A stretch of 35,069 nucleotides of DNA from a bacterium (GCA_030647415.1 JAUSKB010000010.1:1-35069); one strand, 5' to 3'; positions 11,029 through 34,801 are shown, counted from the first letter of the stretch. The notes: generated by a model not told the origin, from the letters alone. Made by a program: numbers and translations.

Positions 11029-11074
11029 GTTCATTTTCTCGCTTAGGACGGCCGTCCTAAGCGAGAAAATGAAC
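11029..11074. repeat. Perfect 46-bp palindrome
   Basis: Each 23-base half is the exact reverse complement of the other, with no loop (centre GGACGG/CCGTCC). It lies 23 bases past the nuclease stop codon on the minus strand. It has no T-tract, so it is not an ordinary terminator. Confidence 0.9.
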
Positions 11075-14415: not shown

Positions 14416-14461
14416 GACTTCTCATTCCGTCCCGACCGCGGTCGGGACGGAATGAGAAGTC
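14416..14461. repeat. Second perfect 46-bp palindrome
   Basis: Two exact 23-base reverse-complementary halves with no loop (centre CCGACCG/CGGTCGG). It is flanked by the direct repeat ATGTACAA (14402-14409 and 14469-14476) and an outer inverted pair ACAAGTAT (14406-14413) / ATACTTGT (14485-14492). It has the same length as the palindrome at 11029-11074 but a different sequence. Confidence 0.9.
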
Positions 14462-15776: not shown

Positions 15777-17150
15777 TTATACTCCTCCCGGAGTCGGCGA
15801 GGGTGTTCCTATGGCACCGGGAACCTTATCAAATAGGAACTCGATGGGGTTGTGGTAGCCGTAGGCTTGCGGGTACCCCGGCGTGTAGCCGTAGCAGTAC
15901 CGCGCCGAGCCATCCGTCCGGCGGCAGGCTTGCCCGTTCGAAGCCGTGCGAAGGCGGGCCTCCCCTCCCCTGGGGTTCTCCAAAACCGGTGCATCTTTGA
16001 TTTCGAAGTGGAGGTGCGTGTCGTTCGGGTAGGCGGTATCGCACCCATCCGGTCCGACTTTCCAATAATTCCGGCAGCCGTTCCCGCTGTTCCCCATCAC
16101 GCCCAACACGTCGCCAGCAAGGACGGCATACCCCGGAACGATTTCGGGCGCGATGGTGTCCAGATGCGCGTAGAGCGCATATCGGCGCACCGTTCCATCC
16201 ATGAATCCCATGACGACGGTGTTGCCGAGCCCATGGTCGCGCCCGTCGTTTTTCTGGACCAGCTCAATAGTGCCGTCCGCAATCGCATATACGCTCGGGT
16301 CCGCCTCGGCGGCAGTGTCCGGATTCAGCGCGAAGTCCGTGCCCGTGTGCGAGTAGTAGTCGTCGCGGAGTGTGTCGAGGGAGCCGCTGTTCGCATAGAA
16401 TGAGCGGTAGGGGTTTATGAAGCGCTGGCGAATCCAGGCGTTCGAGAGATTGACCGGCGCGTGAAATACTCCCTTCAGTGACAGGTCGGCGAAAGTCTTG
16501 TAGACAGCAATCTGGTCGCCCGTCTTCAGAAAGTCGTAGAGGGCCTTCGCCACCTCATCCGCGAACCGGAGACACCCGCCGGTGAACACGGACGAGACCG
16601 CCGTGCCGTCATCGTGGTACGGGATGCCGTGCATGAAGAAATCCTCGTAGTATTGGAGCGACCACGGCATCGTGACCGGGAAGAGTGACGAACGATGCTC
16701 GATGTGCTTCACGCCGATGCGGTAGTATCCGGTCGGCGCCTCGTACCACATACCCTCCGGTGCCTGGTAGCGCAACGGTTCTATTGCGACAATCTTCCCC
16801 TCATCGAATAGAAACGTTCTGCCTGCGGTGAGATCCACCTCGATGCCACGAGCCTCGGTCAGGCGCTTCGGGCGTGAGCATACGGCCGCACGGTCCGCCG
16901 GCGCAAGCGTTTCAGCGAAAGTTTGGTCGCAGCTACTTCCTAGAGGCGAGACCTCGGGGGCTCCTTGAGGTCTCGCCTCTTGCATTCCCCGAGGTTTTGC
17001 CTCTGGGAGGCGGATTGGTGTATTCGGGAAGGTCGGGAGCGGCAACGAGGCAGGCCGCGTCTCTTCGATATGAAAACGCGCAAAGATGCCGCCGGCAATG
17101 GCGATAGCAACGACACCGAAAGCGATGCAAATGAGATAGAAAAATTTCAT
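15777..17150 (-). CDS. L,D-transpeptidase (YkuD) fused to an M23 endopeptidase
   Basis: This 457-aa wall enzyme has an N-terminal membrane anchor (residues about 4-24). Residues about 95-225 are a YkuD domain with MHGIPYHDD and VFTGGCLRF carrying the catalytic Cys (about residue 193). Residues about 260-390 are an M23 metallopeptidase with HTGTDF (H-x-x-x-D) and HLHFE (H-x-H). One half makes 3-3 cross-links; the other cuts stem-peptide bridges. The segment EAKPRGMQEARPQGAPEVSPLG near residue 60 and PRGGEARLRTASNGQ near 400 look like in-frame repeat insertions. It lies just downstream of the other M23 gene. Confidence 0.88.
   Translation of the reverse strand: MKFFYLICIAFGVVAIAIAGGIFARFHIEETRPASLPLPTFPNTPIRLPEAKPRGMQEARPQGAPEVSPLGSSCDQTFAETLAPADRAAVCSRPKRLTEARGIEVDLTAGRTFLFDEGKIVAIEPLRYQAPEGMWYEAPTGYYRIGVKHIEHRSSLFPVTMPWSLQYYEDFFMHGIPYHDDGTAVSSVFTGGCLRFADEVAKALYDFLKTGDQIAVYKTFADLSLKGVFHAPVNLSNAWIRQRFINPYRSFYANSGSLDTLRDDYYSHTGTDFALNPDTAAEADPSVYAIADGTIELVQKNDGRDHGLGNTVVMGFMDGTVRRYALYAHLDTIAPEIVPGYAVLAGDVLGVMGNSGNGCRNYWKVGPDGCDTAYPNDTHLHFEIKDAPVLENPRGGEARLRTASNGQACRRTDGSARYCYGYTPGYPQAYGYHNPIEFLFDKVPGAIGTPSPTPGGV
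16942..16980. repeat. Palindromic repeat inside the L,D-transpeptidase gene
   Basis: AGAGGCGAGACCTC (16942-16955) and GAGGTCTCGCCTCT (16967-16980). The 13-base core GAGGCGAGACCTC and its complement recur in scpA at 30029-30072. In both proteins it encodes a PEVSP-containing peptide in a non-catalytic linker. Confidence 0.85.
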
Positions 17151-17156
17151 TCGGAC

Positions 17157-17210
17157 AGGTCTTTCAACTTCGCTCAGGGTAGACCCTTCGACTTTGTTCA
17201 GGGCAGGTAT
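17157..17210. repeat. Two tandem CCTGA-GTCGAAGG type repeats
   Basis: On the minus strand CCTGAACAAAGTCGAAGGG is followed by CCTGAGCGAAGTTGAAAG. The TGA of the first copy is the stop codon of the M23 gene. Related copies lie at 28497-28550 (scpB) and 29568-29590 (scpA). Confidence 0.7.
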
Positions 17211-18487
17211 TTCATCGGGTCAAGGTCCCCACCGACCGGCATCGGACCGCAACTTGACGGCTTCGTGCCCTCGGGGTAGCCCGGACGAGCCGCCGTGAGC
17301 GTTTGCGAGGCAAACACGGTGAAGTGGAGGTGGGGCCCGGTCGCATAGCCGGTCCTGCCAACGTACCCGACGACCTCCCCGCGCTCCACGCGGGTGCCAA
17401 CCTTCGCCTGAATCTTCGACAGGTGCCCATAGAGCGTGGTGAGCCCGTTCCCATGCTTCAACTCCACGAACTTGCCGTACGCCGCCTTCCGGCACCCGCG
17501 GTACGCGTCCTGGTCCCCCGCATTGATGACGATGCCGCTTTCGGCGGCGTACACCTCCGTACCGATGGGCGCGCCGAAATCCACGCCGTTGTGCCATTTG
17601 GATTTATAGGCGCGCTCGGCGAACGCGGTGGCGCCGTGTCCCTGCGTCAGCTTCGGATTCGCGACCGGATTAGCAAGCAATCCCCTCCCGACCGTGGGAA
17701 GCGTGTTCGGGTCAATCGTGCGCCGGAGCTCCTCTTCGATTTTGTTGATCTCAATGGAAATTTGGTCCTGGACTTTCTGGAGGTCCATCAGCTGCGCCGC
17801 GTACGCCTGCTCCCGGTTCTTCGTCGCTGTGATGAGCTGCTGTTTTCCCTCGCGTTCGCTCGCGATGATGGTCTTTCGGCTCGCGAGCGTCACCTGCTCC
17901 CGTTCCCGCGCCGTCTGTTTCTTCTCAAGGTTGGTTATCGATGTGGTGAGGTCCTGCTCCGCGACCCGGAGGTCCGAAATCGTCGACATGAGCTTTCCGG
18001 AAAGCACCGTCGCCTGCGCTGCGTCGGACACGCCATCTGAAAACCGTCCATGGCGAAGAAAAATAAGGAGCGGTTGCTCCTGCTCGGCTTCATGCAACCC
18101 GCGGATGAGCGCTCCGAGCGCCTCGCGGTGCGCCGTAACGAGCTCCCGTTGATCTGCAATCGTACCCGTAAGGCCCTCGATCTCATCCGCGAGCTGTGCC
18201 TGCGTCAATTCGTTCTCCTTGATTGCGTAGGTGAGCTCGGTGACGGTACGGTCGATGACCTTCAGGTCGCGCCCGAGTGTCTGCCCCGACTGCGTCAACT
18301 CGTCAATCTCACGCTGTACCGCCTCCTTTTTCGCCTGGATGTCGGCAAGCTCCTTCGCTTTTGCGTCAATACTTCCCTTGAGGTCCACCGGTGTTGGTAT
18401 CGCCGCAGTGACCGCAATCCAACCCGCAAAAAATATTGCCATACAGAGGCCGGCTGATGCGACACGTTCTGTAAATATTCGTCTCAT
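17198..18487 (-). CDS. EnvC-like coiled-coil M23 murein hydrolase or hydrolase activator
   Basis: This 429-aa protein has an N-terminal signal or anchor (about residues 10-30) and a long coiled coil (about 38-255, Glu/Lys/Gln-rich). The C-terminal M23 domain has HNGVDFGAPIG with the first His and Asp (about residue 299), LYGHLSKIQ and GPHLHFTVF (H-x-H). All metal ligands appear present, so it may be an active endopeptidase rather than a degenerate activator. Its ATG overlaps the gltX stop (ATGA), so the two are translationally coupled. Its stop codon lies in a dispersed repeat. It likely acts in septal wall splitting. Confidence 0.9.
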   Translation of the reverse strand: MRRIFTERVASAGLCMAIFFAGWIAVTAAIPTPVDLKGSIDAKAKELADIQAKKEAVQREIDELTQSGQTLGRDLKVIDRTVTELTYAIKENELTQAQLADEIEGLTGTIADQRELVTAHREALGALIRGLHEAEQEQPLLIFLRHGRFSDGVSDAAQATVLSGKLMSTISDLRVAEQDLTTSITNLEKKQTAREREQVTLASRKTIIASEREGKQQLITATKNREQAYAAQLMDLQKVQDQISIEINKIEEELRRTIDPNTLPTVGRGLLANPVANPKLTQGHGATAFAERAYKSKWHNGVDFGAPIGTEVYAAESGIVINAGDQDAYRGCRKAAYGKFVELKHGNGLTTLYGHLSKIQAKVGTRVERGEVVGYVGRTGYATGPHLHFTVFASQTLTAARPGYPEGTKPSSCGPMPVGGDLDPMKYLP

Positions 18488-19896
18488 GCACGTATGCGAT
18501 CGAGCGCGGCGGAAAGCCGGCGTATGGTCTCATCCGCCCCGAACACCTCGGCAAGCTCGCTCGGCCCTGGCGACGCTCCCTGTCCCGACAGCGCCACGCG
18601 GAACGGCCACAACACCTCCCCGCGGCCCCGCGCCGCGATGACCGGTTCCAGGGCCGCATCTACCGCGGCGCGGGTGAAGGCGTTCGGTGAAACGTTTCGG
18701 AGCGCCTCACGGACCGCGGCAAGGTTCTCGCGGATGACGGCGACCGGCGTTTGTTTCCAAACCAAGAGTGCAGGGTCGTACGACGGGAGGGTGAAGTAAA
18801 ATGACGCCCGCTCGGTGAACTCCCCGAGCCGCTTTAGGCGCTCCCGTTCCACCGCGACCACCCGGTAGAGGAATTCGCCATCCGCCTGCCACGCGGGCGG
18901 CGTGAGCGGCATGAGGTGCTCCGTGAGCGCCTCCACCGAGAGCGTCCGGATGTAGACGCCATTCATCCACTCGAGCTTCTTCGGATTGAATACGGCGCCG
19001 CCCTTCTGGACGCGCTCCAACGTGAACTCGCGGACCAGCGCATCAAGGTCGAGGATTTCTTGGTCGTGCACGGGGTGCCAGCCGAGCAGTGCAAGGAAGT
19101 TCCGCATCGCTTCCGGAAGGTACCCCGCGCGGCGGTAATCCATGAGCGACCCGGAGAGGAATCGCTTCGAGAGTTTCTTCCGGTCGGGTCCCAGAATGAG
19201 CGGCAGGTGGGCGTACGCGGGATGTGGTAGGTCGAGCGCCTGGTGGATAGCGAGCTGCTTCGGCGTATTCGAGATGTGGTCCTCGCCGCGGATGACCATG
19301 GAAATGCCGCTCTCGTAGTCATCCACGACGGCGGCAAAGTTGTAGAGCGGGGCGCGAAACCCCTTCGCGATGATGATATCCCCGGTGAGCGCGGCGTCGA
19401 ACGAGACGCGGCCGCGGATGAGGTCGGTGAACGTGAACAAGGCGTCCGGCATACGAAGCCGGATGACGGCCGGGTCGTGGGCGGCGAGCCGCCGGGCCGC
19501 TTCGGCTGGCGCGAGCGTCCGGCACCGACCGACGTACTTCGGCATGAGCCCCTGGGAGAGCTGCGCCGCATAGTCGGCGTCGAGCTCCTCCTTTGTGCAG
19601 AAACAGAAATATGCCCGGTCCGACTCGATGAGCTTCTGCAGGTACCGCTCATAGACCTCGGTCCGCTCGCTCTGCCGGACGATTGGACCGTCCCACGCGA
19701 GCCCCAGCCACTTGAGCCCCTCAAGGATTTCCATCTCGTACCTCGCCTCGGAACGCTCCGTGTCTGTATCCTCGATGCGCAGGAGGAACTCCCCTCCCGT
19801 ATGACGGGCGTAGAGCCAGTTGTAGAGCGCTGTCCGGACGTTCCCAATGCTTATGGGCCCCGTCGGCGAGGGGGCAAAACGGACGCGAATTCCCAT
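18484..19896 (-). CDS. gltX: Glutamyl-tRNA synthetase
   Basis: This 470-aa class I synthetase charges tRNA-Glu. It shows FAPSPTG, the LLRIEDTDTERS motif, NFAAVVDDYESGISMVIRGEDHI, and KLSKR as the KMSKS loop (about residue 242), followed by an anticodon-binding helical domain. The HIGH motif reads SIGN, because the codon for the first residue is AGC, so the usual His is Ser. Length is typical. In genomes with few synthetases it often also charges tRNA-Gln for later amidation. No Shine-Dalgarno is seen; TAGAAT ends 7 bases before the ATG. Confidence 0.95.
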   Translation of the reverse strand: MGIRVRFAPSPTGPISIGNVRTALYNWLYARHTGGEFLLRIEDTDTERSEARYEMEILEGLKWLGLAWDGPIVRQSERTEVYERYLQKLIESDRAYFCFCTKEELDADYAAQLSQGLMPKYVGRCRTLAPAEAARRLAAHDPAVIRLRMPDALFTFTDLIRGRVSFDAALTGDIIIAKGFRAPLYNFAAVVDDYESGISMVIRGEDHISNTPKQLAIHQALDLPHPAYAHLPLILGPDRKKLSKRFLSGSLMDYRRAGYLPEAMRNFLALLGWHPVHDQEILDLDALVREFTLERVQKGGAVFNPKKLEWMNGVYIRTLSVEALTEHLMPLTPPAWQADGEFLYRVVAVERERLKRLGEFTERASFYFTLPSYDPALLVWKQTPVAVIRENLAAVREALRNVSPNAFTRAAVDAALEPVIAARGRGEVLWPFRVALSGQGASPGPSELAEVFGADETIRRLSAALDRIRA

Positions 19897-19933
19897 GTCC
19901 CCTATTCTACCCTGTTGGGATGCACTCTCACAC

Positions 19934-19963
19934 TTGACAAAATTTATGTATTTTTGTTATAAT
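19934..19963 (+). promoter_or_regulatory. Strong promoter for the 212-aa gene
   Basis: TTGACA (19934-19939), 18-base spacer and TATAAT (19958-19963). The leader is about 110 bases and contains a TCGCA-ATCC-TGCGA hairpin (19973-19986) and a repeated CGCAATCCTG (19974 and 20037). Confidence 0.8.
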
Positions 19964-20080
19964 GTGCACAGCGTCGCAATCCTGCGATGACTTCAAAAAC
20001 AGTTGACCCGGAACGGATGGGTGGAGCAAACCCGACGCAATCCTGGCGACAATAATATCATCAAAAACACAGGAGGAAGT

Positions 20081-20719
20081 ATGTCAGTGCATGTATATTT
20101 CAAGGAAACCGTGCGTACTTTGCCCGGTTTCACAAGTAAGCCCTATAAGGACGGGTCGGGAAACAGGTTGAGCATCAACGACCTAACTCTGTATGGCAGT
20201 GATGGTCGTTTGCATGCGTCGCTTGGAAGCGAAAACGACGAAATTCCTGAATCGTTGATGGAGTATGTTGTTGGGTTCTCGCTTCATGAAACAGTAGTAA
20301 AAACCGGGACCCGCGAGGCGGGAATTTACAAACATGAAACTGCCGAGGCGGAGGTCGAATTCTCTCAATATGATGCAAGGCGGGAATCGTACATCGTGAA
20401 GATTACTGGCGAGAAGATGGGGGATGTCCGTGAGTTGTTCCACAAAATCAAAGCCGGCTCGGTCCGACCGGACGAGAGTTACGAGGGCGAGCAGCTCGGG
20501 CTCTCCCGCAAGGAACTTGAGGTGGTGCTGGAGCGAGTCACTGCAGAGCTGGAGCAAATTACCGCCCAGCAAGACTCCCTTGCTAAACTTGCGAGGAATG
20601 ATAACGCTCTCCGCGTGTTAGCCCTTGAACTGCGTTCGGGTTTCCCGTTCTGCAAAAAGGAATCCGTCGCAATCAAAATATTGGATATCCTCAATGGCGT
20701 AACAAGAATCCGACTTTGA
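20081..20719 (+). CDS. 212-aa protein of unknown function
   Basis: The ATG at 20081 follows AGGAGGA by 3-4 bases; the frame open upstream (from 20003) has no ribosome site. The first 110 residues look beta-rich and soluble. Residues about 140-180 form a Glu/Leu-rich coiled coil (LSRKELEVVLERVTAELEQ). No signal peptide, membrane segment or catalytic motif is seen. It is monocistronic, with a consensus promoter and its own terminator. Like the other plus-strand genes here it contrasts with the surrounding minus-strand housekeeping genes. Confidence 0.75.
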   Translation: MSVHVYFKETVRTLPGFTSKPYKDGSGNRLSINDLTLYGSDGRLHASLGSENDEIPESLMEYVVGFSLHETVVKTGTREAGIYKHETAEAEVEFSQYDARRESYIVKITGEKMGDVRELFHKIKAGSVRPDESYEGEQLGLSRKELEVVLERVTAELEQITAQQDSLAKLARNDNALRVLALELRSGFPFCKKESVAIKILDILNGVTRIRL

Positions 20720-20757
20720 GATGTCTTGATATTAACCGAGCCTGACCGGATAAACAG

Positions 20758-20792
20758 GCAGCCCAACCAACAAGGTTGGGCTTCTGCTTTTC
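20758..20792 (+). terminator. Terminator of the 212-aa gene
   Basis: GCCCAACC (20761-20768), loop AACAA, GGTTGGGC (20774-20781), then a T-rich tail. Confidence 0.88.
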
Positions 20793-20847
20793 ATATAGTG
20801 CACACACGTGGCGCCTCTGCTATTTAAATTACAAAATGAATATTACC

Positions 20848-20887
20848 CCGTGTCAGGTGGTATGACATGTCATACCACCTGACACGG
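20848..20887. repeat. Perfect 40-bp palindrome sharing a core with 32611-32638
   Basis: Two exact 20-base halves (centre TATGACA/TGTCATA). The inner AGGTGGTATGAC and GTCATACCACCT are identical to the palindrome at 32611-32638. Both lie shortly after a terminator. Confidence 0.9.
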
Positions 20888-20917
20888 TCAAAAAAATGTT
20901 GTGTCGTACTATGCGGG

Positions 20918-21013
20918 TCATGAGACTCCCGGGAAGCCCACAAGGCGCAACAATTCCTCTGCAATGACCTCTGCGGCGGCCAGGCGGACGAACGGCTGGA
21001 CCGCGGCGGCGAG
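20918..21013 (-). pseudogene. Displaced 3' end of murG
   Basis: Bases 20943-21013 match 22506-22576 of the intact murG gene with 3 mismatches in 71. In the murG frame it reads QPFVRLAAAEVIAEELLRL and then a different ending, VGFPGVS, with a TGA at 20918. The intact gene ends AKFPS. So this is an alternative murG terminus in the same orientation, 1.56 kb from the working one, and it lacks the rest of the gene. Confidence 0.85.
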
Positions 21014-21090
21014 GGGGCAAATCCCGGACTCGTACCATACGAATTCTATTATACCGCGATTTTCAGCCACTTCTAGCTACGAAAAACAGA

Positions 21091-21119
21091 TTGACAGATT
21101 TTCACATGTGTGCTACAAA
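21091..21119 (+). promoter_or_regulatory. Promoter of the 404-aa membrane-protein gene
   Basis: TTGACA (21091-21096), 17-base spacer, TACAAA (21114-21119), about 50 bases before the start. Confidence 0.65.
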
Positions 21120-21168
21120 TACACTAGCGTTTTCACCTAATTTCAAAAACATAAATAAAGGAGCATTT

Positions 21169-22383
21169 ATGGAACGATCAGTTTTTGCTGACGTCGAGAT
21201 GATTGTTCTCAAAGAGGGCAGGACTCGGCAAAACGCGCTGTCCCAGCGGATTGAAGAGACAGAGACGGCGATTGTGGAGGAGGGGCAGCGCAAACCCAAA
21301 GTGGTCAGGGAAATCACGACGTTCTTTGGCTTCGAGCGCGAAATCGAACGTCAAGCGAGCGTTCCAAGTCGCGTTGCCTCGCTTGCCGTTGAGAAGGAGG
21401 GGTTCAAAAAATCCCTCGATAGCTATTCCATATTCTCGACCGAGCGACTCGCGTTCCTGCAGTCGCTCACCGAGAAGGGAATCCAGCCGATCGCGGTTCT
21501 CCCGCGAGCGCTCTGGAACGAGCTTATGCGAGAGTTTGGGCTCATTCGCTTCGAACACGTCGACAAGGACGGGAAGACGGGCGTGAATCTAGTAGCACCG
21601 GAATTCCTGGTTGCGCTGGTGAGAGCGATTTTGGGTGCTGGATTCGTAACAGGCGTTCTCGCGCTCGTTGCGTCATTCCTCATAGCGATACCCATCACCG
21701 CAGTTTCCCTACTTTTCACTGGAGTCGCCGCGCTCATCCTTTTCGAAGAGTACGCGCAGGTAAGGTTCCGCCTACCCGACGGTCTGGCGTGGTTTACTGC
21801 CTTGTTCGCGAGCGCAGCTACGGTGAGTATTGGTATGAGCCGCAACTGTTCTAATGGTGAGTTAGTTGTGGTGGGCATTGTAGGAGGTTTTGTCCTAATT
21901 CTTCTATCCTATCTCCTGATGACCTTGTTCTTTCTATTTGGAAAAAAACCAGGAGATTACAAGGAGGGGTTTGCACCACAAATAATCGAAGCGGCGTTCC
22001 GCGTGGCGCGATGGAAGATGTTTTCCCTCCGCTCACATGCAAAGCAGGTCCGATTCCTCTGGCCGGACAGCGCCGATACAAACGGCGCCGACAAGGTGAC
22101 GGTCCGATTCCCAAAGGCGCCGAAGGGATTCGTTGACACGCTCGTAAAATTGCAGGAGGGCGGCCAACAACCCATGATCGCGGCAGTGCCGGAAGCCGTC
22201 ATGTTCAATAGTGAGGAGGCGAAGTGCGCGCTTGATGAGCAGACTCACCGACTCTTCGCAGACCCGATTCTTTTCACTGCAGATAAAAAATGGGTCGCAG
22301 TAGTCGCGCAGTTTGGCGACTTCCCGCGTGAGCAGGAAGTCGTGGCATGGGTGAAGCAGAATTTCAATCTCTGCTTCAACTAG
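21169..22383 (+). CDS. 404-aa membrane protein of unknown function
   Basis: The ATG at 21169 has AAAGGAG 7 bases upstream. Residues 1-140 are hydrophilic and helical. Residues about 145-265 hold four hydrophobic segments (LVRAILGAGFVTGVLALVAS; IPITAVSLLFTGVAALILF; WFTALFASAATVSIGM; LVVVGIVGGFVLILLSYLL). The last 130 residues are soluble, with a WPDSAD segment. No family is recognised. It has its own promoter and terminator and is the only gene between the two copies of the murG 3' end, so it looks like cargo of an inserted block. Confidence 0.8.
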   Translation: MERSVFADVEMIVLKEGRTRQNALSQRIEETETAIVEEGQRKPKVVREITTFFGFEREIERQASVPSRVASLAVEKEGFKKSLDSYSIFSTERLAFLQSLTEKGIQPIAVLPRALWNELMREFGLIRFEHVDKDGKTGVNLVAPEFLVALVRAILGAGFVTGVLALVASFLIAIPITAVSLLFTGVAALILFEEYAQVRFRLPDGLAWFTALFASAATVSIGMSRNCSNGELVVVGIVGGFVLILLSYLLMTLFFLFGKKPGDYKEGFAPQIIEAAFRVARWKMFSLRSHAKQVRFLWPDSADTNGADKVTVRFPKAPKGFVDTLVKLQEGGQQPMIAAVPEAVMFNSEEAKCALDEQTHRLFADPILFTADKKWVAVVAQFGDFPREQEVVAWVKQNFNLCFN

Positions 22384-22390
22384 AACAGAA

Positions 22391-22419
22391 CGCCTCGCAA
22401 GATTGCGGGGCGTTTTTTT
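22391..22419 (+). terminator. Terminator of the 404-aa gene
   Basis: CGCCTCGCAA pairs with TTGCGGGGCG (one G-T pair), followed by seven T. Confidence 0.9.
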
Positions 22420-22423
22420 GTTC

Positions 22424-22487
22424 AATCTCACGACGTGGCACGTCGTGAGATTTTCTAAAATGTTCGATTTCGTAAATCGAACATTTT
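22424..22487. repeat. Two tandem 14-bp hairpins at the murG 3' end
   Basis: AATCTCACGACGTG-G-CACGTCGTGAGATT (22424-22452) and AAAATGTTCGATTT-CGT-AAATCGAACATTTT (22457-22487). The second overlaps the murG stop codon by one base. They may terminate murG transcription, but there is no long T-tract on the minus strand. Confidence 0.85.
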
Positions 22488-23629
22488 TAGCTCGGGAACT
22501 TCGCGAGGCGCAACAATTCCTCTGCAATGACCTCTGCGGCGGCCGGACGAACGAACGGCTGGACCGCGGCGGCGACGTCAGCAGGCCGCTGTCCGATAGC
22601 GATGAGGCGCAGGAGCTCCTCGCGCACGATGTGCCCCGTCAGATTCCCCTCCTCCACCACGGTGGCCGCCCCGGTCTCCGCGTAGGCGTAGGCATTGCGC
22701 CGCTGATGGTCACCGGCAGACCCGGAAAGCGGCACGAGGAGCACCGGCCGTGCGAAGAGCGCACATTCGGTGATAGTGCTCGACCCGGCCCGCGAGAACA
22801 CCACGTCCGCCGCGGCGAGTGCGCGCCGCATCTCGCCCACATCGAGAAACCCCGCCGTTCGGTACCGATGGTGCAGTGCCGCCGGGAGCTGGTCCAGAAA
22901 CGTTGGGGCGCTATTTTCCACCTCCGCACTATTCGCCGGTCCGGTCTGGTGGTAAATCTGGAATGCGGGAAGAAGCGCCGCGAGGTTTTCGAGAATAAAC
23001 GTGTTTAGCCGGACCGCACCCTGCGAACCGCCGAGCACAAGGACGAGCGGCACGTCCGGGTCGAACCCGAGGGCTCGCTTCGCGCCGCCCGAGGTCTCAC
23101 GTTCGGCACGCAGGCCTGACCGGACCGGCGTGCCGACCAGCGCGGTTCGCTCGCTCGGGAAGTAGCGTGCGGAAAACGGGAAGGTGATGCCGATACGGGC
23201 GGCGAACGGCGCGGAAAGCCGGTTGGTGAGCCCCGGCACCGCATCCGATTCATGGATCATGACCGGGATACGGTAGAAGCGGGCGGCAAGGACCACCGGC
23301 AATGCTCCGGGCCCCCCTTTCGAAAAGACCGCGTCCGGCATGACCGCGTAAAACACCACGAGCGCCTGAAGGAGACCAAGGATGAATTTCGGGATGTCCA
23401 CCAGATTCTGGAGCGAGAAATAGCGCCGAAATTTGCTCCCGAGTATCAGATGCACGTCAATCTTACGGGCGCGAAACTCATCCACGCCGAGGCCGGGGGG
23501 GGCGATGTACGCGAGTCGCACCGCACCGCCCGAACGCCGGGCGAGCTCGTCCGCGACCGCAAGGAGCGGGTAGAGGTGTCCCCCGCTCCCGCCCCCAGCC
23601 AACGCAATGATGATTGGTTCCCGTCGCAT
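22487..23629 (-). CDS. murG: UDP-GlcNAc:undecaprenyl-PP-MurNAc-pentapeptide GlcNAc transferase
   Basis: This 380-aa GT28 enzyme turns lipid I into lipid II at the inner face of the membrane. It begins MRREPIIIALAGGGSGGHLYP with the donor/acceptor-loop GGGSGGH. It has DAVFSKGGPGALPVVLAA and IPVMIHESDAVPGLTNR, LVLGGSQGA at the start of the C-terminal domain, and SRAGSSTITECALFARPVLLVPL with the UDP-binding region. The start at 23629 lies 10 bases after the ftsW stop; a longer frame would overlap ftsW. Its 3' end is duplicated at 20918-21013. Confidence 0.96.
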   Translation of the reverse strand: MRREPIIIALAGGGSGGHLYPLLAVADELARRSGGAVRLAYIAPPGLGVDEFRARKIDVHLILGSKFRRYFSLQNLVDIPKFILGLLQALVVFYAVMPDAVFSKGGPGALPVVLAARFYRIPVMIHESDAVPGLTNRLSAPFAARIGITFPFSARYFPSERTALVGTPVRSGLRAERETSGGAKRALGFDPDVPLVLVLGGSQGAVRLNTFILENLAALLPAFQIYHQTGPANSAEVENSAPTFLDQLPAALHHRYRTAGFLDVGEMRRALAAADVVFSRAGSSTITECALFARPVLLVPLSGSAGDHQRRNAYAYAETGAATVVEEGNLTGHIVREELLRLIAIGQRPADVAAAVQPFVRPAAAEVIAEELLRLAKFPS

Positions 23630-23639
23630 GAACGTGTCG

Positions 23640-24761
23640 CTACGACTGGTAGCGCGATACATTTACCATGATACCACTCATGGTAAGAAAAACGGTAAGC
23701 GCCGTCCCACCGTAGCTCACAAACGGCAAGGGTACTCCCGTCAGGGGCACGAGTCCCGAGACTGCCGCGATGTTCACGAACGCCTGGAGACCAATGAGGC
23801 AGGTGCAGCCGGTGACGAAAATCCTCCCGAAGCTATCGCTCGTATGCCGGGCGATTCGGAGACCTCGCCAGATGAGGACCGAGAATGCCAAGAGAACGAA
23901 AAGCGACCCGAGGAACCCAAGTTCCTCTGCAATGACCGCGAAGATGGAATCTCCAATCGGTTCCGGCAGGTAGTACAGCTTCGTGGTCGATTGGCCGAAC
24001 CCGACGCCGGTCCAGCCGCCGGAACCGATTGCGATGAGCGCCTGGTTGATGTGGTACCCCGTGTCCGCGGTGTCCGCAGTTGGGTTGAGGAAGGTGAGCA
24101 CGCGCGCCTTGCGGTAGGGGGAAAAATAGATGAAGACGGACAGTGCGAGGGAAACCACGAGCGCGGCGACCGCGAGGAAGCGGATTTTCGCGCCGCTCGT
24201 GAAGTACATGAGGACGGATGCAAGGAAAATGAGTATGGCGACCGTGGTTGCCGGCTGGAGCAACAGGAGCACCATGACGCCGCCGACGAGCGTGAGGAAC
24301 GGGAGAAACCCCTGAACGAAGCTTGAGCCCCTGGTTGTCGAGCGGCTAACCCAGGCCGCGAGGTAGATGAAGAAGGTGAGTTTCAAAAGCTCGCTCGGCT
24401 GGAAGGTGAATGCGCCGAAATTCAACCACCGATCGGCACCCTTCACCGAAGAAACACCGAAACCGGTGAACACGAGTACGAGGAGTACGATGGAGAGAAC
24501 GAGGAACGGCGTCGCGAACCGTTGCCAGCGCCGATAGTACGCAAAACACCCGACGAGAAAACCGACCATTCCCGGGAGAAGACCGTACAGGAGCTGGTGC
24601 ATCACGAAGTACGAGCTGTCGCCGAACTTTGTGCTGGCAAGGTCGGAGGAGGCGCTGGTAAGCATCACGATACCGAAAATCGTGAGCGTGAGCACCGTCC
24701 CCAGGAACAGGTAGTCCGGGGCGCCGCTCGTCGGCCGTCGCATATTCGTTCGTCGGTTCAT
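23640..24761 (-). CDS. ftsW: FtsW/RodA-type peptidoglycan glycosyltransferase
   Basis: This 373-aa SEDS protein polymerises lipid II into glycan strands. It has about ten transmembrane helices and the family signatures VKGADRWLNFGAFTFQPSELLKL (seen in parts), TGYHINQALIAIGSGGWTGVGFGQS, KLYYLPEPIGDSIFAVIAEELG and PLPFVSYGGTA near the C-terminus. The start at 24761 is chosen because it overlaps the deacylase stop as ATGA. Order ftsW-murG on the same strand matches the dcw cluster, so the division-type FtsW rather than RodA is preferred. Confidence 0.95.
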   Translation of the reverse strand: MNRRTNMRRPTSGAPDYLFLGTVLTLTIFGIVMLTSASSDLASTKFGDSSYFVMHQLLYGLLPGMVGFLVGCFAYYRRWQRFATPFLVLSIVLLVLVFTGFGVSSVKGADRWLNFGAFTFQPSELLKLTFFIYLAAWVSRSTTRGSSFVQGFLPFLTLVGGVMVLLLLQPATTVAILIFLASVLMYFTSGAKIRFLAVAALVVSLALSVFIYFSPYRKARVLTFLNPTADTADTGYHINQALIAIGSGGWTGVGFGQSTTKLYYLPEPIGDSIFAVIAEELGFLGSLFVLLAFSVLIWRGLRIARHTSDSFGRIFVTGCTCLIGLQAFVNIAAVSGLVPLTGVPLPFVSYGGTALTVFLTMSGIMVNVSRYQS

Positions 24762-26278
24762 CGGTGGTCGCGCCGGAGCACCTGGCCGCCGCATACGCCG
24801 GTCAGTGTGCCCATTCGAAGTGCACACACGCCGTTCACGAATACATACGATGGCCGAAGCGTCTCCGGGTCGAGTACGAGCACATCGGCGGCGGAACCTT
24901 CTCTAAGCACGCCGCGATGCCGGAGGTGATAGACGCGCGCCGCACTGCCCGTCAGGCGCTGTACTGCCGCCTCGAGCGGCACTCGGCCGCTTGAGGCGGC
25001 CCAACGCAAGAATGCCGTGAAGATGTCCGATTGAACCTCGTGCGGCGCGAGCCGCCGCCGATAACCGCGTCCCTGCGTGGCGACGAGTGCCCTGCTCGAG
25101 GACAGGTAGGCGGCGAGCGGTATGCTCGCGACATCGCGGACGAGAACCGTTGCATTGCCGCGAGTGATTCGCACAACCTCCCCGAGCGTTTCGAGCGGCG
25201 ACCGATTCCTTGTTTCCGCCAACGCATCAATCGTCTTCCCCTCGAGAAACTGGAGCGAGCGGTCGAACACTCGGTCGATGACAATGCCGAGCGGCAGGTG
25301 CGCCGCGAGCGCACGAAAGTCCGGCCCGCTTCGCCTCGCCCGCTCACTCGCCTCGCTTCGCGGGCGAAGCGGGTCGGGCGAGGCGTGCAAATCGGTCGAT
25401 GCCGCTACGAGATGCTTTAATGAAATTTGCGTCGTCTCGAGTGGTTGGATGTCGAAGTGGACATCGCATTGCCCGGCAACGTGTTCGAGTATGGTCAAGA
25501 GCTCTCCGTACCGATGGGCATCGCTCACACGGGGCGTGAGGTGTGAAAAAAGGACTGCAACGCGAGCGGCGCGGCTCACCTCGAGTACGGCGTGGGCATC
25601 AGTGATGAGTGCGCGCGGAACGGCACCAAGATGAACTGCAATGACGCCACCGGCGCGCGCGACAATGCGAGCTACAGATTCAAGCGAATGTTGGGAAAGA
25701 AACTCGACGCCATCGCCCCCGTATCCGACTGAAAGTCCCAGCGCTCCCTCCCGAAGGGCGGCGATAAGAAGGTGCGCGAACGTCCGCTGGTCCCGTTCCG
25801 TGGCATCACACGTACTCGTGCCCTGTGCGGTCAATCGGAGTGCTCCGGAACCGACCAGCGTGCCGAAGTTGACGCCAAGCCGCATCCGCTCGAGGAATCG
25901 AAAGAGGTCTAGAATGGAGGGCCAGACGACGCTCGCGTTCGTTGGGTGCCGCCACACGTCCGCCGTTGCATCAGTGGGAGTGCGCCAGGGCGCGAACGAC
26001 CACCCGCACTGCCCGCCGATGACGCTCGTGATCCCCTGCGTAATGAGCGACGCACTGCCCGCCGGCGTGAATAGGTCGCCCGACCGGTCCGCATGGGAAC
26101 CCGCATCGATGAACCCGGGGGTGACAAGGTTGCCAACCGCATCGATGACCTCGTCCGCCGCCGCGTTTGCGAGCGACCCGATGCGCACGATCCGGCCGCT
26201 TCGAATAAGGAGGTCACATTTCACGGCCGGCGCTCCGGTGCCGTCGAGGACCATCCCGTGCTTGATGAGTGTTACCAT
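24758..26278 (-). CDS. N-acyl-D-amino-acid deacylase-like amidohydrolase
   Basis: This 506-aa protein fits the D-aminoacylase group of the amidohydrolase superfamily. It has LVTPGFIDAGSHADRSG, GGQCGWSFAP (compare GNCGFSIAP), REGALGLSVGYGGDGVEF, VIAVHLG, VLFSHLTP, and RGVLREGSAADVLVLDPETL at the end. The first metal site reads S-H-A-D rather than the usual H-x-H/D, so its metal binding may differ. Residues about 298-316 (SPDPLRPRSEASERARRSG) come from a palindromic insertion. It lies inside the wall operon between mraY and ftsW with ATGA coupling, suggesting action on D-amino acids from peptidoglycan; that role is inferred. Confidence 0.85.
   Translation of the reverse strand: MVTLIKHGMVLDGTGAPAVKCDLLIRSGRIVRIGSLANAAADEVIDAVGNLVTPGFIDAGSHADRSGDLFTPAGSASLITQGITSVIGGQCGWSFAPWRTPTDATADVWRHPTNASVVWPSILDLFRFLERMRLGVNFGTLVGSGALRLTAQGTSTCDATERDQRTFAHLLIAALREGALGLSVGYGGDGVEFLSQHSLESVARIVARAGGVIAVHLGAVPRALITDAHAVLEVSRAARVAVLFSHLTPRVSDAHRYGELLTILEHVAGQCDVHFDIQPLETTQISLKHLVAASTDLHASPDPLRPRSEASERARRSGPDFRALAAHLPLGIVIDRVFDRSLQFLEGKTIDALAETRNRSPLETLGEVVRITRGNATVLVRDVASIPLAAYLSSSRALVATQGRGYRRRLAPHEVQSDIFTAFLRWAASSGRVPLEAAVQRLTGSAARVYHLRHRGVLREGSAADVLVLDPETLRPSYVFVNGVCALRMGTLTGVCGGQVLRRDHR
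25332..25385. repeat. Nested palindrome inserted in the deacylase gene
   Basis: CGCCTCGCCCG (25332-25342) pairs with CGGGCGAGGCG (25375-25385). Inside is CGCTTCGC-GG-GCGAAGCG (25354-25371). The 54 bases keep the frame and encode an Arg/Ser/Pro-rich stretch unlike the flanking enzyme. Confidence 0.8.
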
Positions 26279-26313
26279 AGTTTTTAGTTGTTGGTCGTTG
26301 GTTGTCGGTTACC

Positions 26314-27360
26314 CTAGACATACCGTGCGAGAAAGAAGACGACGAGCCCGATGATACTCACGACCGCGGCGATGATCCAAAACCGCATGGTGATCTGGCT
26401 CTCCGGCCACCCAAGCGCTTCGAAGTGATGGTGGATGGGGCTCGAGTGGAACACCTTTTTTCCCCGGACCTTCTTCGAGATGAGCTGTACAATGACCGAC
26501 GCCGTTTCAATGACGAGGATGAACCCGAAGAACGGCAATAAAAGCGCCGTGTTCGTGAGCATCGCCACGACGCCGAGCGTGATGCCAAGCGACATGGAGC
26601 CCGTATCACCCATGAAGAACCGCGCGGGGTGGATGTTGAACCACAAAAAGGCGAGGAGCGCCCCGAGTATCACGGCGATCATTACGGCAAGGTCGTACCG
26701 CCCGAGGACGAACGCCACCACCGCGAGTGCGCCGAATGCGAAGAAGAGGACCCCGGCCGCAAGCCCGTCCAGCCCATCCGTGAGATTTGTCGCATTCGAA
26801 GTTGCGACCAACACAAAGATGAAAACCGGGATGTACCAGATGCCCATCTGGATGTAGCCCACGAACGGCACGAAGAGCGTGTCCCAGCCGAGCTTCACAT
26901 AGAACCACCAGGCGCCGATAGCCGCGATGCTGGTGTACAGCACGAGCTTATGCCGAACGGTGAGACCGCCACCCTTCGGACCGCGCCCCATGATACCCCA
27001 CAAATCATCTACGAGCCCGACGAGCGCCGCGAGGAGGAGCGCCGCGAGCGGCAGGTAGGTCTCCGCGCGGTTCACAAAGTTGAAGTACGAGGCGAAACCA
27101 TCGAATATGAGCGAGCCAGTCCAAAAGACCGCAGCGAGACCGATTACGGTCGCCCAGATGATAATACCGCCCATCGTCGGCGTCGCACTCTTGTCCTTAT
27201 GGAACTGATGGAAGACAGGCGTGGTCGTCGCATCCCGAATGTTCCGCTTTCGCAGGTTCCACCGGATGAGCGCGCGATAGACGAGTGGTGTGACAAGGAG
27301 CGCCACCACGAACCCAAGCGCGAACATGATAAGTACCCGAAGTGCGGCGAATAGTTCCAT
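26314..27360 (-). CDS. mraY: Phospho-N-acetylmuramoyl-pentapeptide transferase
   Basis: This 348-aa polytopic enzyme makes lipid I from UDP-MurNAc-pentapeptide and undecaprenyl phosphate. Signatures are HKDKSATPTMGGI, ALVGLVDDLWGI with the Asp pair, ATNLTDGLDGLAAG, WFNIHPARFFMGDTGSMSLG and SSPIHHHFEALGWPE. About ten transmembrane segments and full length. TAGAAT lies 12 bases before the ATG. The 35-base gap to the deacylase holds a G/T-rich repeat, but the two are probably cotranscribed. Confidence 0.97.
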   Translation of the reverse strand: MELFAALRVLIMFALGFVVALLVTPLVYRALIRWNLRKRNIRDATTTPVFHQFHKDKSATPTMGGIIIWATVIGLAAVFWTGSLIFDGFASYFNFVNRAETYLPLAALLLAALVGLVDDLWGIMGRGPKGGGLTVRHKLVLYTSIAAIGAWWFYVKLGWDTLFVPFVGYIQMGIWYIPVFIFVLVATSNATNLTDGLDGLAAGVLFFAFGALAVVAFVLGRYDLAVMIAVILGALLAFLWFNIHPARFFMGDTGSMSLGITLGVVAMLTNTALLLPFFGFILVIETASVIVQLISKKVRGKKVFHSSPIHHHFEALGWPESQITMRFWIIAAVVSIIGLVVFFLARYV

Positions 27361-27376
27361 GGTTACTGGTAAATTC

Positions 27377-27527
27377 TAAACCCTAAAAAGGAATCTCTGT
27401 TTGTCCGCCGAAGGCGGATCCGCCTCTGGCGGAGAATTTAGGATTTCGGTATTGTCCCGACTTTGTCGAGGATGCCCGATAAAATCGGCATTTAGAATTT
27501 AGTATTTAGAGTTTAGGGTTTTGCTGG
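27377..27527. repeat. Composite inverted repeat between mraY and dacA
   Basis: AAACCCTAAA (27377-27386) pairs with TTTAGGGTTT near 27518-27527. Between them lie TCCGCC-GAA-GGCGGA and TCCGCC-TCT-GGCGGA hairpins back to back (27408-27437) and CCGAT-AAA-ATCGG. The right arm encodes the last codons and the TAA of the dacA-like gene. Confidence 0.65.
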
Positions 27528-28469
27528 AAATTCATATGCCTCGTCGACCCAGTGCATCAAACCCTGTACCTCATCATAGCGGTTTTTGCTCCCCAGGAGC
27601 ACGACGACGATCCGGTCGGTGCCATGCGAGAGGATTGCGAGCAGGTTCTCCCCCGCGGCGGGGGAGGTGCCGGTTTTGCCGCCGAGAAACGTTGCCGACA
27701 ACGCAAGCGAATTGATGTTCGAGACCGTCCGGGTCGTGCCTCCGTTCAAGGGTTGGACCAAAATGCTCGTGAGCCGGCTCCACGCGAAGATGTCCGGATG
27801 CTGTGCGGCGATGTACGCTGCGAGTTTCACCAAGTCGCCTGCCGTGGACCGGTTCTCGTCCGACAGGCCCGAGCCGTCATGCACGGATGTCTGCGCCATC
27901 CCGAGTTCCAAAATCTTCGCGCGCATGAGACCACGGAACACCTCCTGTCCGCCGGCATACTCCTCGAATGCCGCGGCCGCATCGTTCGAGGAGGTCATGA
28001 GCATGACCTTCAGGAGATCGCGGGCGGTGTAGATCTCACCACTCGAAAGCTCACCTGCCTCCCCTTCCGTCTGGACCGCGATAAGACCGACCGGCACCTT
28101 CTTGTCGGGACCGAACTGTTCCAGCACCACGACGGCGGTGAGGAGCTTCGTGAGCGAGGCGATCGGTCGGGACTCGTAGGTACGATAGTTCAAGAACGAG
28201 AACGGCGTACCGATGAGCTGCGCAGTGGCTGCTGCGGCTCCGACCGTCGGGTCCAGCACGCTCCACCGGCGTTTTGGCATCCCGTCGGTTTCTGCCAGTC
28301 GGTTTTTGTCCCTCGCTTCTACTCGGGATGAATCATCGGTCGTCAGTTGTCGGTTATTAACTTGTCTGGCCGCCTCCTGCGTTTCCGCACGAGGCGCGAA
28401 CGCCTTCGAGGCCAGGACGGAGGCAAGTATGATCACGAGGAGTAGAAGCGCTTGCAAACGAAAGTTCAT
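27513..28469 (-). CDS. dacA-like: D-alanyl-D-alanine carboxypeptidase, S11 family
   Basis: This 318-aa penicillin-binding protein trims the terminal D-Ala of stem peptides. It has an N-terminal signal or anchor (LLLLVIILASVLASKAF) and then a Gln/Asn/Thr-Arg-rich spacer (residues about 36-62) derived from dispersed repeats. The catalytic motifs are SLTK (S-x-x-K), SSN (S-x-N) and GKTGTS (K-T-G). The ATG overlaps the scpB stop (ATGA). There is no obvious C-terminal amphipathic anchor, unlike many DacA proteins. The final residues PAKP and the stop are supplied by a repeat. Confidence 0.92.
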   Translation of the reverse strand: MNFRLQALLLLVIILASVLASKAFAPRAETQEAARQVNNRQLTTDDSSRVEARDKNRLAETDGMPKRRWSVLDPTVGAAAATAQLIGTPFSFLNYRTYESRPIASLTKLLTAVVVLEQFGPDKKVPVGLIAVQTEGEAGELSSGEIYTARDLLKVMLMTSSNDAAAAFEEYAGGQEVFRGLMRAKILELGMAQTSVHDGSGLSDENRSTAGDLVKLAAYIAAQHPDIFAWSRLTSILVQPLNGGTTRTVSNINSLALSATFLGGKTGTSPAAGENLLAILSHGTDRIVVVLLGSKNRYDEVQGLMHWVDEAYEFPAKP

Positions 28470-29392
28470 GGCGTGAGCGGTGTTACTTCGTTTGTCCCTC
28501 GACTTTGCTCGGGACGGTTCGAGGGACGGTGAGCTTGTCGAACCGTTGTTTGTTTGTCGGTTGTCTCCTGTTGTCGGTCGTCTGTCACTTGTCGTTGGTC
28601 TTCATTCGTCTCCTGTTGTTGGTTGTCCCTCGGCTCCGCTCGGGCCGTTCGAGGCTCTGAGGAGCCCTCAGGCTCTCGAAGAGATGGTGAGCGTGTCGAA
28701 CCATTCGTTGTTGGTTGTGGGTTACTGGTTGTTGGTTGTTCGTTCAGTGCTGTCAACTTCGCCCGATAGGCGGCATATTCTGGAAGGTCCGCACCGCGAG
28801 CAAGCCCGAGATGCCGGAGGAAGCGCGCGGTCGTCCGGTATGCGTAGAGGTTTCCACGGCTCGCCTCAGGGTCACGTTCCACGAGACCGCGGACGACGAG
28901 GTTCCGGAGGGTGAAGCTTGAATTCACGCCGCGGATGTAGTCAACAGTCGAACGCGGCACGGGACCGAGGTAGGCAACGAGCGTCACGACCTCAAGACCC
29001 GCGGGTGAAAGCTCCGCGCGAAACTCATCTTGGATAAGCGCCTGTGCAATATGCTGACAGGTGGGCTTCGTGACCAACTGAACACTCGAACCACCTGTGG
29101 TGAGCGGCGTCGAACCATGCCGAAGTATGGTCAACCCCTGCCCCAAGTCGGCGTTCAATGCCCGCTCGAGCTCATCAACGGCAGTGCCGCACGCACTCGG
29201 CTCGATGCCGAGGAGCTTGGCGGCCCGTCCCACCGCGATAGGTTCGCCGTATTGGAAGAGCAGCGCTTCAAGCTGCGCCGAGATGGGCGCTGTGTCTGTT
29301 GGTATTTTTTGCTCTTGGTCCATGTGTGTCTCAGTCGCTTCTGTTTCTACGTTGTTTGTTGTTGGTTGTTTGTCGTTTGTTGACTTACTCAT
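28466..29392 (-). CDS. scpB: Segregation and condensation protein B, with repeat-derived tails
   Basis: This 308-aa protein is the winged-helix partner of ScpA in the SMC condensin. The core (residues about 35-215) has LEALLFQYGEPIAVGRAAKLL, the SPAGLEVVTLVAYLGPVPRSTVDYIRGVNSS segment (seen in parts), LVVRGLVER and YRTTARFLRHLGL. The start at 29392 overlaps the scpA stop (ATGA). The first 25 and last 90 residues are low-complexity (Gln/Asn/Thr/Arg/Glu) and come from dispersed DNA repeats; normal ScpB is about 180-200 aa. Confidence 0.92.
   Translation of the reverse strand: MSKSTNDKQPTTNNVETEATETHMDQEQKIPTDTAPISAQLEALLFQYGEPIAVGRAAKLLGIEPSACGTAVDELERALNADLGQGLTILRHGSTPLTTGGSSVQLVTKPTCQHIAQALIQDEFRAELSPAGLEVVTLVAYLGPVPRSTVDYIRGVNSSFTLRNLVVRGLVERDPEASRGNLYAYRTTARFLRHLGLARGADLPEYAAYRAKLTALNEQPTTSNPQPTTNGSTRSPSLREPEGSSEPRTARAEPRDNQQQETNEDQRQVTDDRQQETTDKQTTVRQAHRPSNRPEQSRGTNEVTPLTP
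28500..28760. repeat. G/T-rich and GTCGAA-type repeats forming the scpB 3' tail
   Basis: On the plus strand the segment is built from GTTGTTGGTTGT-like units and CCCTCGACTTTGCTCGGGAC-like units. On the coding strand these read as NQQQET, RQVTDDRQQETTDKQ and RPEQSRG peptides. Similar units occur at 26281-26310, 28331-28360, 29350-29385, 32950-32990 and 33850-33895. Confidence 0.75.
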
Positions 29393-30225
29393 TGTACGGG
29401 CGGTGGGGTGAGCTTCGCAATCGGCCCGTGGTGAGCCCGTCGAACCCACATATCCCCGAAGTGCCTCCCCTGTTCAACATTAACAAGTTGCTCCTTCACA
29501 AGGTGCAATACCGCAAGGAATAGCGCGACCAACTCGCTCCGTTTCGCTTGCAATGAGCCTGCCTGCCCTGAGCTTGTCGAATGGGTTGAATCAGTCGAAA
29601 GACTCGAAAAGCTCATCGAGGTACTCGCGGTGAGGCGTATGAGCACTTCTTCAATCTTCTGCTTCAGATTCGCGAATTCCATCCGAATCGCCGCCGTTGG
29701 TCTCGAGAGGCGTTCCAGCTCGCCGAGCATCCGGGCAAGCGCGCTTTCCATCGCCTGCGGCGTCACGGCGGGCGGCGGGTAGAAGCCGACATTCACCGTT
29801 TGGAGGAACTCGCGCGCGAACATGACCGGCATCGGGTTCCAGAGCCGCTTCAGGTGCCGCTGCGCGCCCCTAAGTTCCTGGTAGAGCGCGAGACGCGTCT
29901 CGAGGTCCTGCATCTCCTCTGCTTCCTCGGGCGTCACCGCGAGCGAGGGTAGGAGCGCCTTCGATTTGATGAGGATGAGCTTCGAGGCGACGACGAGGAA
30001 GTCGGCGATGAGCTGTGGGTCGACGCCGCCCCGAGGCGAGACCTCGGGGGATTCTGAGGTCTCGCCTCGGGGCAATCCCTCAAGCTCCCGAACATACTCA
30101 AGGAAATCGCCGGTGACCTTCGCGATACTTATCTGCGTCACGGGTAGCTGTTCGCGCTCGATGAGCTCGAGCAGTTTCTCGAGCGGTCCCTGATAAGAAT
30201 CGAGTTGTAGGGTGAATTTATTCAT
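29389..30225 (-). CDS. scpA: Segregation and condensation protein A, with insertions
   Basis: This 278-aa kleisin bridges SMC heads. It starts MNKFTLQLDSYQGPLEKLLELIE and has QISIAKVTGDFLEYV, LIADFLVVASKLILIKSKALLP, and a C-terminal winged-helix (ELVALFLAVLHLVKEQLVNVEQ). Two non-family stretches interrupt it. One is LPRGETSESPEVSPRGG at about residue 52, between the first two conserved blocks, from a 44-base palindrome. The other is THSTSSGQAGSLQAK near residue 220, from a GTCGAA-type repeat. Both keep the frame. It is coupled to scpB by ATGA. Confidence 0.92.
   Translation of the reverse strand: MNKFTLQLDSYQGPLEKLLELIEREQLPVTQISIAKVTGDFLEYVRELEGLPRGETSESPEVSPRGGVDPQLIADFLVVASKLILIKSKALLPSLAVTPEEAEEMQDLETRLALYQELRGAQRHLKRLWNPMPVMFAREFLQTVNVGFYPPPAVTPQAMESALARMLGELERLSRPTAAIRMEFANLKQKIEEVLIRLTASTSMSFSSLSTDSTHSTSSGQAGSLQAKRSELVALFLAVLHLVKEQLVNVEQGRHFGDMWVRRAHHGPIAKLTPPPVQ
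30029..30072. repeat. Palindromic insertion in scpA, same family as 16942-16980
   Basis: CCCCGAGGCGAGACCTC (30029-30045) and GAGGTCTCGCCTCGGGG (30056-30072), 17 perfect pairs and a 10-base loop. It encodes RGETSESPEVSPRG in frame. Confidence 0.88.
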
Positions 30226-31442: not shown

Positions 31443-31543
31443 CCTGTTAGAGTTTTACACGCAATCTTTATACATGCAAAAATTTGTCGCTACATGAACA
31501 AAAGTCATAAGAAATCCGTCTATCTGTAAAACTCTAACAGGAT
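31441..31543. mobile_element. 103-bp inverted-repeat element, copy 1
   Basis: ATCCTGTTAGAGTTTTACA (31441-31459) and its exact complement (31525-31543) enclose 65 bases. The left end overlaps the ychF ATG. It shares ACATGC at interior position 13 with copy 2. No target-site duplication is evident. It has no coding capacity. Confidence 0.88.
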
Positions 31544-31660
31544 AAATGTGAATTTGATTTGATCAGCCAGTTGGCGGAGAAACTACAAAATTCAGTACCC
31601 CGCCACCGGCGGGGTCGAATGTGCCGACCGCCACTGGTGTAGATAGTTGAAAAAAATAGC

Positions 31661-32610: not shown

Positions 32611-32638
32611 AAGGTGGTATGACACGTCATACCACCTT
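32611..32638. repeat. 28-bp palindrome of the GGTGGTATGAC family
   Basis: AAGGTGGTATGAC-AC-GTCATACCACCTT. The inner part is the same as in the palindrome at 20848-20887. Confidence 0.88.
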
Positions 32639-32701
32639 TTGGAAACAAGAAATCGCACAATCTTGCATATTCGAGTTTCACTCCATTTTCATTTTTCTTT
32701 T

Positions 32702-32804
32702 ACCCTGTTAGAGTTTTACAAAACTATTATTTACATGCGTTCGACTGGTATTGCATGCTACCCGTTATTAAAATAGTGGCGTGCGTGTAAAACTCTAACA
32801 GGGT
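32702..32804. mobile_element. 103-bp inverted-repeat element, copy 2
   Basis: ACCCTGTTAGAGTTTTACA (32702-32720) and its exact complement (32786-32804) enclose 65 bases unlike copy 3. The right end provides the TAG stop and last codons of the glycosylase gene. Confidence 0.88.
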
Positions 32805-34690: not shown

Positions 34691-34801
34691 GTATACCCTG
34701 TTAGAGATTTGCACGCACACCATTCACTGTATACGTTTATGTGTTAGCACAAACAAGTGGGTAGTAACAAAAATTGTATGCAAATCTCTAACAGGGTATA
34801 C
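34691..34801. mobile_element. 103-bp inverted-repeat element, copy 3, with 4-bp extended ends
   Basis: The core 34695-34797 is 103 bp, bounded by ACCCTGTTAGAGATTTGCA and its complement. Pairing extends four more bases on each side (GTAT/ATAC). Relative to copies 1 and 2 the arms differ at two positions, each matched by the complementary change in the other arm. Confidence 0.88.

Follow-up and report, generated by a model that had tools for sequence, protein, structure and literature searches.

Two palindromes that share the 13-nt core GAGGCGAGACCTC, one within an L,D-transpeptidase gene and the other within scpA, lie on a 35,069-nt stretch of bacterial DNA (GCA_030647415.1 JAUSKB010000010.1:1-35069, hereafter the window). 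Both are very probably copies of a genome-wide family of REPINs, that is, repetitive extragenic palindromic (REP) sequences paired as inverted doublets, and their most likely mover is a homologue of the REP-associated tyrosine transposases (RAYTs) encoded in the same genome (the C37 RAYT). The genome comprises 963,714 bases in 38 contigs with 99.65% completeness and, judged by its size, its gene content, and the relatives recovered, looks like that of a member of the Patescibacteria or candidate phyla radiation (CPR).

Paired hairpins between and within genes

Matches to GAGGCGAGACCTC with up to two mismatches occur seven times in the window, compared with 1.15 expected, a number that none of 100 shuffles attained. 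The core forms one inverted pair at 16943-16955/16967-16979 in the L,D-transpeptidase gene, beside which lies a third, degenerate REP (GAGGCAAAACCTC), and a second inverted pair at 30033-30045/30056-30068 in scpA. A preliminary description of this DNA had placed the same 13-bp-core palindrome in both genes, as we find, and had it encode PEVSP in each; this is true of the second arm, whereas the first arm is read in differing frames (RGETS in ScpA, EARPQ in the L,D-transpeptidase). Its characterization of the host genes as essential fits scpA, and probably also holB elsewhere in the genome, but is not established for the L,D-transpeptidase.

Across the genome the core is matched 56 times with at most one mismatch (10 matches are unpaired), and 26 doublets read AGGCGARACCTY-spacer-RAGGTYTCGCCT, providing the further genomic copies for which the preliminary description had proposed a search. 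No paired hairpins of this family were found in 41 other genomes from the same family as the host. The repeating unit spans 36 to 42 bp and consists of two 13-nt REPs (GAGG-N5-CCTC) inverted around a spacer of approximately 10 to 16 nt. In the 25 doublets examined, the two arms are complementary throughout, with identity over the 11-nt core in 25/25 and over all 13 nt in 23/25. Copies differ from one another at three sites, and these changes are matched in both arms; because the arms stay matched though the copies differ, every copy retains a palindrome of its own, which is the pattern anticipated if doublets spread whole. A region of C37 (~79930-80820; L041:1500-2430) holds three REPINs nested inside longer outer REP-like arms, and two or three of these fall within a single O-antigen ligase gene.

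Gene context was assigned with a custom codon-usage gene caller that was checked on the window. The family is predominantly extragenic: 17 of the 25 REPINs placed are intergenic, 7 lie inside genes, and 1 overlaps a gene end. Intragenic copies are far fewer than random insertion would give (P ~2e-8, with ~83% of the window coding), and many REPINs sit within ~5 to 60 bp of gene ends. We considered and rejected the idea that the element is itself adapted to coding sequence by keeping all frames open, as 0.74 of its frames are open, against 0.73 in random DNA of the window and 0.67 after shuffling of the elements. REPINs are thus not unusually stop-free, and their survival in frame looks like selection after insertion rather than adaptation of the element.

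The preliminary description also held that palindromes sit in frame in coding genes without breaking them, and ScpA and ComEC provide examples in which the orthologues are missing the inserts. The scpA REPIN encodes RGETSESPEVSPRG in a linker whose length varies in any case; this segment is absent from 29 aligned ScpA orthologues of the family (41 to 50% identity), most of which have a linker shorter by 12 to 15 residues. Judged from this alignment, the scpA REPIN is a real in-frame insertion, and the observation that had been named as capable of overturning the idea, namely, orthologues that carry the same peptide without any palindrome, did not materialize for ScpA. (An AlphaFold model of ScpA made with no alignment had a mean predicted local distance difference test [pLDDT] score of 49 and was not used.) In ComEC, QGETSGILEVSPW occupies a loop that is ~24 residues shorter in most orthologues; the aligned orthologues have no insert, and this copy is an in-frame insertion like that of ScpA. 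The copy in the DNA polymerase III delta' gene (holB) occupies a variable linker with ~7 to 9 net extra residues and is supportive without being clean. Further in-frame copies lie in the O-antigen ligase (Wzy_C) gene and possibly in a ComF-like gene. In the L,D-transpeptidase, the REPIN encodes EARPQGAPEVSPL in the linker that follows the N-terminal membrane anchor, a linker too divergent among orthologues for alignment to prove insertion. The proposed comparison with relatives yielded insertion-free orthologues for ScpA and, for the deacylase described below, a net difference of ~4 residues.

A RAYT homologue bracketed by REPs of the family

Two Y1_Tnp genes are present in the genome, on C37 and C38. 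The first encodes the C37 RAYT (217 aa; G000:C37:120722-121375), which matches the Pfam profile Y1_Tnp above its cut-off (3.7e-8) as well as REP_Tyr_transpos (3.4e-10). It carries HFH at residues 81 to 83, and Y141 and N145 align by eye with E. coli Y115 and N119, so that the protein is predicted to have both the HuH motif and the catalytic tyrosine of Y1/HUH transposases. Single REPs of the family, GAGGTTTCGCCTC and GAGGCTTCGCCTC, bracket the gene (locus L043), one at each side; in this genome the REP that makes up the REPINs thus also flanks a RAYT homologue. The C37 RAYT is a divergent member or a sister group of RAYT/TnpA_REP. It falls apart from the RAYTs of family-mates in a tree, which suggests separate acquisition. 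A PDB sequence search with the C37 RAYT returned no match; a structure model of an Adlerbacteria relative (L055; mean pLDDT 69.5, shallow alignment) had as its best PDB match 4ER8, the E. coli RAYT bound to its REP (E 2e-3). The second Y1 gene (L086:1201-1875; G000:C38:15096-15443) was rejected as the mover, as it is divergent and has a different flanking hairpin (AAAAGGGT...ACCCTTTT).

Scanning GTDB representatives with the hairpin pattern alone recovered 30 stretches. Many belong to CPR genomes (Adlerbacteria, Taylorbacteria, Vogelbacteria, Falkowbacteria), and an Omnitrophota genome is also represented. A homologue of the C37 RAYT is encoded in 14 of 15 genomes found by the hairpin alone (best identity ~45 to 53%) and in 19 of the 41 family-mates (mostly 34 to 46%). 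RAYT genes flanked by this REP type are more frequent in hairpin-bearing genomes (4/21 full-length genes) than elsewhere (1/87; p=0.005). The genome sets compared are not matched for taxonomy.

We envisage that the RAYT would recognize the hairpin in single-stranded DNA and would copy or move the REP doublet to new sites. Persisting copies would be mostly intergenic, and intragenic copies would persist only where the frame was kept and a tolerant linker was hit, as in ScpA and ComEC, with the host protein gaining a probably neutral loop of ~12 to 25 residues.

Several points weigh against this scenario. The GT[AG]G motif that marks the 5' foot of canonical (GTAG) REPs is found at just 3 of 50 outer feet in the genome, and the C37 RAYT stays below the NCBIfam equivalog cut-off of NF047646 (40 versus 80 bits). 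Of 384 genomes in the class, 190 encode a RAYT homologue, and because such genes are this common, their co-occurrence with hairpins is by itself weak evidence. We infer, rather than observe, the mobility of the REPIN, the role of the C37 RAYT as its mover, the steps of transposition, and the neutrality of the added peptide.

CPR RAYT genes often contain their own hairpin. A flanking hairpin accompanies 100 of 108 full-length genes, and 39 of these 100 also carry a hairpin inside the coding sequence that matches the gene's own flanking REP (no more than 2 of 15 nt differing; examples are loci L089, L090, L092, L096, L099, L100, L105, L109, L119, L120, L123, and L135). When REPs were exchanged between RAYT genes as a control, only 195/10,700 comparisons matched (1.8%). 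Internal hairpins are centred on codons 55 to 75, before the HUH motif, in 37 of the 39 genes. REP sequences vary from one RAYT gene to the next (e.g., CAAGGTCGAACCTTG, GGAGGTCGGTCCTCC, and TGGGGTCAGACCCCA), yet the internal copies match the flanking ones, which indicates that internal and flanking copies changed together. The reading phase of the internal hairpin is the same in 29 of the 39, and the segment matching the REP is no longer than in genes without a match; an old fixed site fits this better than fresh insertions do. On the RAYT tree the internal-REP label is scattered, with 25 changes, which is compatible with recurrent loss as well as with recurrent gain. The residues encoded by the REP map, in the L055 model, to a moderately confident part between its first helix and the HUH strand. 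The C37 RAYT itself has no intact internal REP, none was found in E. coli rayT as a control, and the REPs that flank RAYT genes carry the GT[AG]G guide at only 3 of 116 feet. We tentatively suggest, as a possibility that we hold at somewhat less than even, that the cognate REP at a fixed coding site before HUH is a maintained part of the system in CPR RAYTs, changing with the flanking REPs. The enzyme would then have a built-in substrate in its own gene or mRNA, whether for self-binding, autoregulation, or self-copying, and the REPINs that lie in frame in scpA and elsewhere would be by-products of such a system.

Alternative explanations and other repeats of the window

The in-frame copies in ScpA, ComEC, and the O-antigen ligase, and probably those in the L,D-transpeptidase and holB, could instead belong to a family resembling the Rickettsia palindromic elements (RPEs), whose palindromes would enter chiefly coding genes, by some mechanism not yet known that involves no RAYT. 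We consider this very unlikely, as most copies are intergenic, the units are short REP doublets, and the genome has a RAYT with the same REP at its flanks. The proximity of many copies to gene ends and the perfect palindrome kept by each copy would also suit hairpins with a function for the host (transcription terminators, mRNA stabilizers, or protein binding sites, for instance) that were spread by selection or recombination rather than by transposition. Such roles offer nothing for the in-frame copies inside genes, sit poorly with the absence of the family from 41 family-mates, and leave the association with the RAYT unexplained, and we regard an origin of this kind as very unlikely.

That the PEVSP peptides descend from ancestral protein sequence, with the palindromes a coincidence, is scarcely credible. 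The linker of the L,D-transpeptidase cannot be aligned, and so this gene alone does not exclude it, but the idea is already refuted for scpA; the segment is missing from 29 orthologues of ScpA and from those of ComEC that were aligned, and 26 copies of the same DNA stand in contexts that have nothing in common. A REPIN family with a RAYT as its probable mover is the explanation that we retain.

The window contains further repeats, and the features discussed here are collected in Table 1. Near its C-terminus ScpA has an extra STHSTSSGQAGSL that is missing from the 29 aligned orthologues, a second insertion derived from a repeat (CCTGCCCTGAGCTTGTCGAA) unrelated to the REPIN. The peptide of this repeat, STSSGQAGSL, is similar by eye to SSGQAIRQ in the holB linker of one relative (genome G039) and to RQAQGIRD in the ScpA linker of another (genome G040). 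The amidohydrolase gene, the deacylase of the preliminary description, was said to be interrupted by a different nested palindrome. The repeat is indeed distinct, and its core (CTTCGCGGGCGAAGCG) has three exact copies in the genome; this different core and the low copy number rule it out as a member of the GAGGCGAGACCTC REPIN family. The stretch that it covers is poorly conserved and differs from family orthologues by ~4 residues net, and no clear interruption is apparent.

Table 1. Coordinates of palindromes, repeats, and host genes in the window
Feature	Position	Strand	Remarks
REPIN in L,D-transpeptidase gene	16943..16979	.	Two inverted 13-nt REPs, 11-nt spacer; inside L,D-transpeptidase/M23 gene
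Degenerate third REP GAGGCAAAACCTC	16991..17003	-	Same L,D-transpeptidase/M23 gene; 2 mismatches to core
L,D-transpeptidase (YkuD) and peptidase M23 gene	15777..17150	-	Carries REPIN
Nested palindrome, different low-copy repeat (core CTTCGCGGGCGAAGCG)	25311..25388	.	Inside amidohydrolase gene
Amidohydrolase ("deacylase") gene	24758..26278	-	Pfam Amidohydro_3; family orthologue alignment
scpA	29389..30225	-	Pfam SMC_ScpA 7.3e-19; 29 insertion-free family orthologues
Second repeat CCTGCCCTGAGCTTGTCGAA, unrelated to REPIN	29556..29590 (approximate bounds)	.	Extra STHSTSSGQAGSL near ScpA C-terminus
REPIN in scpA	30028..30073	.	Perfect 18-bp stem, 10-nt loop

Three elements of ~110 bp (31438-31546, 32699-32807, and 34691-34801), each with terminal inverted repeats of 22 to 23 nt (CCTGTTAGAG...) and a 65-nt middle, resemble small non-autonomous transposons. 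A copy, 90% identical, of 83 nt from the 3' end of a murG-like gene lies upstream (20930-21012, 22493-22575), as after partial duplication. Within and around an scpB-like gene, a palindrome-like repeat, TTTGTCCCTCG...CTCGGGA, occurs at 28305-28328, 28491-28514, and 28622-28645, accompanied by GTTGGTTGTTGG repeats; together these apparently encode the low-complexity tail of this gene. Perfect intergenic palindromes of 40 to 46 bp lie at 11029-11074, 14416-14461, and 20848-20887 and are possibly terminators; the palindrome at 20855 recurs at 32612.

Comparison with known systems

The system works like REPIN-RAYT, and by most tests is one, departing from the canonical type in having no GT[AG]G guide and a divergent RAYT. 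As in the REPIN-RAYT systems of Pseudomonas fluorescens SBW25 (PMC3116915) and the described REP-RAYT associations (PMC2817692), the units are hairpin-forming inverted REP doublets, mostly extragenic, and a Y1/HUH RAYT is flanked by the same REP. Unlike in those systems, the spacer is shorter, the foot of the REP has no GT[AG]G guide, copies number in the tens rather than hundreds, the RAYT is divergent, and the host is of CPR type. Our literature search found nothing linking REP or RAYT with Patescibacteria or CPR, which is weak evidence of absence, as subscription papers were mostly outside the search. The present family extends REPIN-RAYT systems to small CPR genomes.

REPs and REP dimers that lie in frame inside protein genes and encode 20 to 30 residues have been described previously (PMC3733652); those carry GTAG or CGTC tags and occupy other host genes, whereas here the hosts are ScpA, ComEC, and the O-antigen ligase. 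REPINs can thus add residues in frame to conserved proteins, ScpA and ComEC among them. The preliminary description had drawn a parallel to the RPEs, which is apt insofar as dispersed palindromes sit in frame, and RPE-1, a longer insertion in genes (PMC3733652), is likewise tolerated by its host proteins. Here, in contrast to RPE-1, copies are mainly extragenic and are accompanied by a RAYT; we rejected RPE membership on placement, RPEs lying mainly within coding genes, and the closest kin are REPs and REPINs with a RAYT (short, mostly intergenic, with the same REP on either side of the RAYT gene). In R. conorii, RPE-4 and RPE-6 have themselves been counted as REPs (PMC3733652).

The relatives of the C37 RAYT recall TnpA_REP subclass 2.4, in which REPs with a GT[AG]G foot lie inside the transposase gene, generally between the HuH and Y motifs (PMC6006769), in that the cognate REP is in frame within the RAYT gene. 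They differ in that the internal REPs of CPR RAYTs occupy a fixed site before HuH and have no guide, and the C37 RAYT is without an intact internal REP, which places the system outside that subclass. Many natural RAYT genes with their own hairpin in the coding sequence amount to matched enzyme-hairpin pairs without a GTAG guide, and such pairs make the recognition and control of REPs by RAYTs testable.
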